Positions 5 through 780 of a stretch of DNA of 32,822 bases are shown piece after piece. A model generated the notes under the pieces. It saw only the letters and a program-made list of their open reading frames with translations, was not told where the DNA came from and searched no databases. This stretch comes from Betaproteobacteria bacterium (GTDB lineage: Bacteria; Pseudomonadota; Gammaproteobacteria; Burkholderiales; JACQAP01), in contig JANXVW010000258.1 of NCBI GenBank assembly GCA_025351455.1, positions 1 to 32,822 on the forward strand, given 5' to 3'. Every line of letters starts with the position of its first letter. Position 1 is the stretch's first letter. Both the position numbers and the translations under genes were made by a program.

Positions 5-50
5 GCGTCAGGCGCGGCGCCAGGACGCAGATTGGCACCACCAGCGCCAA
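5..50 (-). promoter_or_regulatory. Tandem hairpins over the Trp leader (putative attenuator, partial)
   Basis: Read on the minus strand, TTGGCGC (50-44) pairs with GTGCCAA (38-32) across a 5-base loop, with one G-U pair. This stem contains the clustered Trp codons, as expected for segments 1 and 2 of an attenuator. A second hairpin follows at 28-5, with GCGTC pairing GACGC outside and GGCG pairing CGCC inside. Any terminator stem with its U-run would lie left of base 1, so the attenuator cannot be completed here. Confidence 0.42.
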
Positions 51-73
51 CCGGCCCGAATTTCCATTCCCAT
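8..73 (-). CDS. trpL: Candidate trp leader peptide (21 aa)
   Basis: A 21-codon ORF begins 21 bases after the gph stop codon. It has four Trp codons, three of them in a Trp-Arg-Trp-Trp cluster (residues 9-12) and one at residue 18, which is far above chance. Trp-rich leader peptides regulate trp operons by ribosome-mediated attenuation, and gph is commonly followed by trpE in Betaproteobacteria. The trpE gene itself would lie beyond base 1 and is not seen. An in-frame ATG at 97, overlapping the gph stop as ATGA, would give a 29-residue version; a third ATG is at 67. No strong Shine-Dalgarno precedes any of them. The role is inferred from composition, position and the adjacent hairpins. Confidence 0.5.
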   Translation of the reverse strand: MGMEIRAGWRWWCQSASWRRA

Positions 74-93
74 GTTTTCAAGTTTCGACGAGT

Positions 94-780
94 TCATGAA
101 CGCGCAAGTTTGATCAGATCCAGCAAGTCGGGAAGCGTGGGTACTATAGCATCGCAATCAAGCTCTTGCACCGCCAGCGTGCCGCGGTAGCCGTAGGGCA
201 CGCAGAACACGGGGCAACCGGCCGCCCGGGCTGCCGCAGTATCGACCGGCGAATCCCCGACCATTAACAGTTGTCCCGGCTCGATGCCGAACGCGCTGGC
301 GACATGCAAAAGCGGCAACGGGTCGGGCTTCTTGCGGGGCAGGCTGTCCCCGCTCAATACCAGGTCCAGATTGCCCGTCAGGGCCAGCCGTTCCAGCAAC
401 GGATCCGTGAAGCGGGTGGGTTTGTTCGTCACGCAGGCAAGCTTGAACCCGCGCTGCCGCAGGATTTGGAGTGTGAAAGTGGCACCGGCAAACGGGCGGG
501 ATGCGCGCGTCAGCACGGCTGCGTAATGGTTGCGAAAATTCTCGGCGGCTTTTTCGAACGACGCGGCATCGGGCTCGCCACCGGGGGTTCCGGTCAGCAG
601 CCGCTTGACCAGGCGGTCGACACCGTCGCCGACATAAGCCCTCACCACCGATTCAGGTACGGGGGGCCGGCCGATTTGCGCGAGCATGCGAACCGCGGAT
701 TCGTGCAAGTCCGGCAAGGTCTCGACCAGCGTGCCGTCCAGGTCGAAGGCTATCGCCTTAATCTCGATCGGAAAGTTCAA
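94..780 (-). CDS. gph: Phosphoglycolate phosphatase (HAD superfamily)
   Basis: Hydrolyses 2-phosphoglycolate to glycolate in the cytoplasm, salvaging the product of DNA 3'-end repair or Rubisco oxygenation. The 228-residue length fits the family. HAD motifs are in order: DLDGT at 13-17 (nucleophile Asp13, acid/base Asp15), Thr118 as motif II, Lys150/Lys151 as motif III, and GDSPVD at 175-180 as motif IV; residues 20-95 form the helical cap. It lies downstream of rpe on the same strand, and a Trp-rich leader follows. The only workable start is TTG at 780, because an in-frame TGA lies a few codons upstream. That TGA and the likely ribosome-binding sequence GGTGAG both belong to the end of the repeat element at 790-956. 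Related HAD phosphatases cannot be fully excluded, but the context favours Gph. Confidence 0.93.
   Translation of the reverse strand: MNFPIEIKAIAFDLDGTLVETLPDLHESAVRMLAQIGRPPVPESVVRAYVGDGVDRLVKRLLTGTPGGEPDAASFEKAAENFRNHYAAVLTRASRPFAGATFTLQILRQRGFKLACVTNKPTRFTDPLLERLALTGNLDLVLSGDSLPRKKPDPLPLLHVASAFGIEPGQLLMVGDSPVDTAAARAAGCPVFCVPYGYRGTLAVQELDCDAIVPTLPDLLDLIKLARS

Follow-up and report, generated by a model that had tools for sequence, protein, structure and literature searches.

The question raised by this locus is whether a short Trp-rich open reading frame, lying directly downstream of gph at the end of a contig, is the leader peptide of a trp attenuator, and on which step of trpE expression such an attenuator would act. 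The window, meaning the whole stretch of 32,822 nucleotides analyzed here, ends exactly where trpE would begin, as had been predicted from the sequence, because contig C62 stops at its base 1. A TrpE profile search of the window assembly returns only one match, below the cut-off, in a frame of 600 aa that lies on a different contig and was taken for PabB, and a TrpE protein query finds no match in this assembly at E ≤ 1e-15. The gph-trpE junction therefore cannot be read in the window genome itself, and relatives were used in its place. We consider it probable, at roughly 0.6, that the reading frame is the leader of a ribosome-mediated Trp attenuator of trpE, usually acting on translation.

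The leader reading frame and its distribution

The features at this end of the window, all on the minus strand, are as follows.

97-8, minus: predicted trp leader peptide ORF, MNSSKLENMGMEIRAGWRWWCQSASWRRA, with stop TGA at 10-8 (direct reading)
38..49, minus: Trp cluster TGG CGC TGG TGG (W-R-W-W; direct reading)
32..50, minus: Trp-codon hairpin of 7 bp including one G-U, the tip of a long hairpin in relative L004
5..28, minus: second small hairpin, spanning the leader stop (minimum-energy fold)
74..95, minus: predicted 5′ arm of the long hairpin, GAACTCGTCGAAACTTGAAAAC, its partner 3′ arm lying beyond the contig end
94..780, minus: gph, phosphoglycolate phosphatase, with a TTG start in the ORF list; NF009695 and TIGR01449 both above cut-off

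Direct reading of 97-8 confirms the ORF that the original prediction placed immediately 3′ of gph. Counted from the ATG at 97-95, which shares the sequence ATGA with the gph stop, it has 29 codons; two internal ATGs are in frame, one at 73-71, which would give 21 codons, and one at 67-65. The four Trp codons are present as described (49-47, 43-41, 40-38 and 22-20), the first three clustered, and minimum-energy folding of 97-1 yields both hairpins proposed, 50-32 and 28-5, at a stability that is ordinary for so short a piece (z −1.46; 15 of 200 shuffles equally good). Among 4000 random 150-nt pieces of the window, taken from either strand, 0.13% hold an ORF with three Trp in four residues, and none holds such an ORF with an ATG start; conservation is stronger evidence than this estimate. 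The peptide matches no NCBIfam or Pfam family at E up to 1. Between rpe and gph the window carries a short repeat of type CGCAAAGGACGCGAAGG (786-830), and akin repeats form hairpin arms in the gph-trpE spacers of L009, L012, L147 and L256, as though the stem there derived from a dispersed repeat.

In the closest relative (genome G002, locus L004) gph is 84% identical to that of the window and the spacer is nearly the same DNA: 27 of 29 leader residues and nearly all nucleotides are shared. Here trpE, identified by TIGR00564 (528.1 bits versus a cut-off of 517.7), starts 48 nt past the leader stop. In G001, which belongs to the same genus as the window and has a gph identity of 70%, the leader ends in ...MEIPRQKTWTGWRWWRPHAFWRRIQA and trpE starts 40 nt past it; the leader of L033 is the same as that of G001. 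The window genome presumably has the same 3′ arm and trpE as these relatives.

Conservation was assessed at gph-trpE junctions across the order, where 147 genomes have trpE matches (G135, G092 and G053, with trpE at a contig start, were left out). The set with organism names comprises the best 80 of 281 TrpE relatives and is skewed to Rhodocyclales. A trpE start could be parsed in 225 of 227 loci, two being unparsable. At 155 of these 225 junctions gph lies upstream with a spacer of at least 60 nt, so the prediction that trpE follows gph holds in most sampled relatives. A further 22 have gph with a spacer shorter than 60 nt or none (e.g., L010, L021, L022 and L026), into which no leader fits, and control at the gph-trpE site seems to be absent in these lineages. 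The remaining 48 have gph further off, another gene, or no recognized gene upstream of trpE; because ORF detection favors the longest start, a few apparent cases of another upstream gene, such as L185, L191 and L209, are probably spurious. In the assembly of G093, two overlapping TrpE match pieces at G093:C1:1512434-1512948 make trpE look frameshifted.

Removal of near-identical spacers before counting reduced the 155 to 119. A Trp-rich mini-ORF, defined as 8–60 codons with two Trp in six residues, is present in 93 of the 119, versus 3 reverse complements and 5.3 dinucleotide shuffles, and a rule of three Trp in six selects 24 spacers versus 0 and 0.2, respectively. At least one Trp-rich leader is found in 34 of the 49 families of the order sampled, counted by family code. 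The leader start codon lies −10 to +30 nt from the gph end in 69 of the 93 and overlaps the gph stop in 23. For other orders of the class, 60 of 82 genomes with matches were fetched; of their 60 junctions, gph is followed by 60 nt of spacer or more in 36, half of which (18/36) have a Trp-rich ORF, and by a shorter spacer or none in 18. The original prediction had named the lack of a downstream trp gene, or of conservation in relatives, as evidence against it; trpE does lie downstream in the relatives and the Trp codons are conserved.

Pairing between the leader start and the trpE SD region

In L004 an arm identical to window 95-74 pairs with GTTTTCGAAGTTTCAGGAGTTC, which contains the trpE Shine-Dalgarno (SD) sequence. 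The leader start arm in this pairing reads GAACTC..GAAACTT.AAAAC, and the fold of the whole piece (−77.4 kcal/mol, z −5.9) is equaled by 0 of 200 shuffles. Among 119 leaders, 88 have at least four expected pairs between the leader start and the SD region, versus 22% of shuffles, and 44 beat all 25 of their own shuffles in this measure. Covariation was examined in 151 non-redundant spacers by exchanging arms between genomes, a design that keeps the SD core shared by all of them from producing the signal. Arms of the same genome pair more strongly than swapped arms by 5.57 kcal/mol (P = 1.6e-18), an advantage that amounts to 7.06 kcal/mol in the 101 spacers of 80–170 nt and to 2.12 in the 50 spacers above this length, and the control segments, two from gph and one from trpE coding sequence, give −0.84, −0.55 and −0.50. 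Leaders ending more than 105 nt before trpE have no excess in the leader swap test (n = 24, P = 0.55). The SD is covered by own arms in 127 of 151 spacers versus 73% with swapped arms; because swapped arms often cover the SD too, the signal is one of pairing strength and not of SD contact alone. The probability that the SD is unpaired drops modestly, to 0.22 in real spacers from 0.31 in shuffles.

The SD partner usually lies 15–60 nt before the first clustered Trp codon, and in 77 short spacers the TGG of the Arg-Trp pair stands at a median 0.45 of the distance that separates the gph stop from the SD. The outer stem of one Rhodocyclales group, AAATGAC:GTCATTT with CCTC:GAGG, is nearly invariant and thus adds no covariation within the group. 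The 298-nt spacer of L006 has a palindromic insert of ∼170 nt in the leader hairpin, between leader stop and trpE, and its outer leader-start/SD pairing is still predicted despite the insert. The expected covariation of gph-trpE spacers is thus found, and it resides in the leader-start/SD pairing; it is this pairing, and not the two small hairpins that the original prediction had emphasized, that is conserved. This pairing points to control of translation initiation.

On this basis the transcript between gph stop and trpE start would fold as one long hairpin, its outer 5′ arm being the leader start region, its outer 3′ arm holding the trpE SD, and the Trp codons lying near its tip. With ample Trp-tRNA, ribosomes would leave the leader fast, the hairpin would close and trpE would be initiated poorly. 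With scarce Trp-tRNA, a ribosome would wait on the Arg-Trp codons and later ones would queue over the leader start, and together they would keep the hairpin open and allow trpE to be translated. Ribosomes arriving from gph could load the leader start, because it lies near or overlaps the gph stop. The response to Trp and the hairpin-opening step are what we infer from this arrangement. In equilibrium calculations on 95 spacers with the pairing, masking one ribosome on the first clustered Trp raises the unpaired probability of the SD from 0.21 to 0.25; removal of all upstream RNA gives 0.39–0.42, whether the ribosome is placed on that Trp or on the stop codon. Since SD access hardly changes, occlusion by a single ribosome at equilibrium is unsupported, and the switch has to be kinetic or to depend on a queue of ribosomes. 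A kinetic switch is most likely: the hairpin must zip up starting at its tip, and a ribosome parked near there would delay its closing.

Codons preceding Trp in the leaders

An Arg-Trp dipeptide is encoded in the ORF in 122 of 151 spacers versus 7 reverse complements, and one Trp persists in this form (e.g., ...TRW-stop) in several spacers that fall short of the two-Trp rule. The Arg codon before Trp, scored in 144 cases, is CGA in 75, CGC in 42, CGT in 22, AGA in 3, AGG in 2 and CGG in none. Among the Arg codons of gph and trpE at the leader loci, CGA accounts for 70 of 1983 (4%) and CGG for 345 of 1983, in a comparison that omits leaders ending more than 170 nt before trpE. The excess of CGA before Trp is unexpected. 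It is seen in each of four G+C bins, with CGA at 92, 67, 58 and 36% in Arg-Trp leaders versus 9, 8, 4 and 2% of gene Arg codons, and it is stronger in leaders with one Trp (19/23) than in those with several (49/99; P = 0.005). The window leader uses CGC (46-44). An inosine-containing tRNA-Arg is common to CGA, CGC and CGT, and CGG is not among its codons; alternatively, the absence of CGG might be avoidance of an SD-like GGUGG. A role of CGATGG as an internal AUG start was rejected, as only 3 of 76 such AUGs are in frame and open into trpE and as non-Arg codons before TGG end in A in only 13 of 155 cases. The Arg codon site is mostly paired in predicted folds, and since pairing alone would not favor A over C, codon choice is tentatively preferred over base pairing as the explanation for CGA.

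The sensor might be conceived as a codon pair and not as a run of Trp, in which view CGA in the P site, read by inosine tRNA-Arg through an I-A wobble, would slow decoding of UGG in the A site, so that a single Trp would suffice, sometimes as R-W-stop, and the SD-hiding hairpin would be held open by an ancient, class-wide device. This proposal is tentative and, taken as a whole, rather doubtful.

Competing explanations and known attenuators

The expectation of a GC-rich stem and U-run followed by trpE leads to the alternative of classic transcription attenuation, in which an antiterminator would compete with an intrinsic terminator before trpE and the SD pairing would be a by-product of a stable hairpin. 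In L004 a 10-bp GC-rich stem does form over the leader stop, with a weak U-tail (TTTCCGTT), and L217 and L223, both of family f4, have bulged hairpins with T5–T6 tails after the leader, the one in L217 having been missed by the terminator scan of L004 and L217. A lenient rule detects terminator-like hairpins in 18 of the 122 leader spacers versus 9.6 in shuffles, and a compact rule in 15 of 122; strong-stem sites are in excess (8/122 versus 0.8), as are U-tailed hairpins of any size (45/111 versus 25). However, 104 of 122 leader spacers lack any such site under the lenient rule and 107 under the compact rule, T-runs preceding the SD do not exceed those of shuffles in length, and the covarying partner is the SD region itself. 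A terminator as the general rule was therefore rejected, three ways of searching and the scan of L004 and L217 having found them in a minority only; of the attenuator layout first proposed, the trp leader peptide and its Trp codons are supported, together with a conserved long-range pairing, and the terminator with U-run is not supported as a general rule. Transcription attenuation as the principal mode is unlikely, if still the most serious competitor. Lineages may differ in terminator use, and in the genus of the window both layers may operate.

A combination, in which stalled translation would open the SD and also prevent Rho-dependent or intrinsic termination of untranslated mRNA, would follow from the coupling between translation and Rho polarity, and some spacers, L004 among them, carry both features; yet nothing sets such dual control apart from purely translational control, and as a separate explanation we regard it as distinctly improbable. 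Least credible, at very long odds, is that the ORF arose by chance or that the mRNA hairpin has no part in Trp control and serves, for instance, in processing or stability at the gph-trpE junction. This could accommodate the 26 of 119 order spacers without two Trp in six residues, some of which keep a long hairpin, but it is contradicted by the excess of Trp-rich ORFs and of Arg-Trp dipeptides over their controls given above, and by the single terminal Arg-Trp retained in several spacers where the two-Trp rule fails. Translational attenuation by the Trp leader thus remains the preferred reading.

Ribosome-mediated trp attenuation is textbook knowledge, and in the ermC translational attenuator drug-induced stalling switches alternative hairpins. 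Like ermC-type attenuators, the present leaders would let translation of a leader peptide govern access to the SD of the next gene; they differ in that Trp-tRNA would serve as the signal and that no alternative structure was found. In another gammaproteobacterium, Pseudomonas, both trpE and trpGDC reportedly have attenuators, and attenuation is said, in work by Olekhnovich and Gussin from 2001, to be sensitive to miaA; there too a Trp leader peptide precedes trpE, possibly at the same ancestral site. The enterobacterial trp leader (Rfam RF00513, trpL) likewise has a short Trp-codon ORF just upstream of trpE with ribosome stalling as the presumed sensor, whereas the present leaders lie behind gph, have their conserved pairing with the trpE SD region and not in a terminator, and place Arg, encoded mostly by CGA, CGC or CGT, ahead of Trp. 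RF00513 matches neither the window, searched at gathering score, nor 8 loci searched up to E = 10 and 20 loci searched up to E = 1, and no other Rfam leader reaches gathering score in the window. Rfam miRNA-family matches in L005, L006 and L012 fall on long hairpins and were taken as chance. In Sinorhizobium meliloti, trpL/rnTrpL is a Trp leader ORF before trpE(G) that acts by transcription attenuation releasing an sRNA (PMC7298713). One further article suggests that Rfam amino-acid attenuators may have arisen in gammaproteobacteria (PMC3766115), and another refers to a study of bacterial attenuation by Lopatovskaya et al. (2010; PMC4833913). Either that study or one by Vitreschak and colleagues from 2004 may already predict some of these leaders. 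In searches of the open-access literature, no title or abstract was found to report a Trp leader at gph-trpE or in Betaproteobacteria. The SD-hiding architecture and the codon signature thus appear to be new within an otherwise known form of control.

If this reading is correct, many Betaproteobacteria, as judged by the organism names of the relatives, and further gammaproteobacterial orders would possess a trp attenuator not covered by Rfam. A Trp leader peptide sensor would also be seen joined to a translational switch and not to a terminator, with terminators in some lineages. Finally, the CGA-UGG signature makes it testable whether slowing by a P-site codon pair tunes amino-acid sensing in bacteria.
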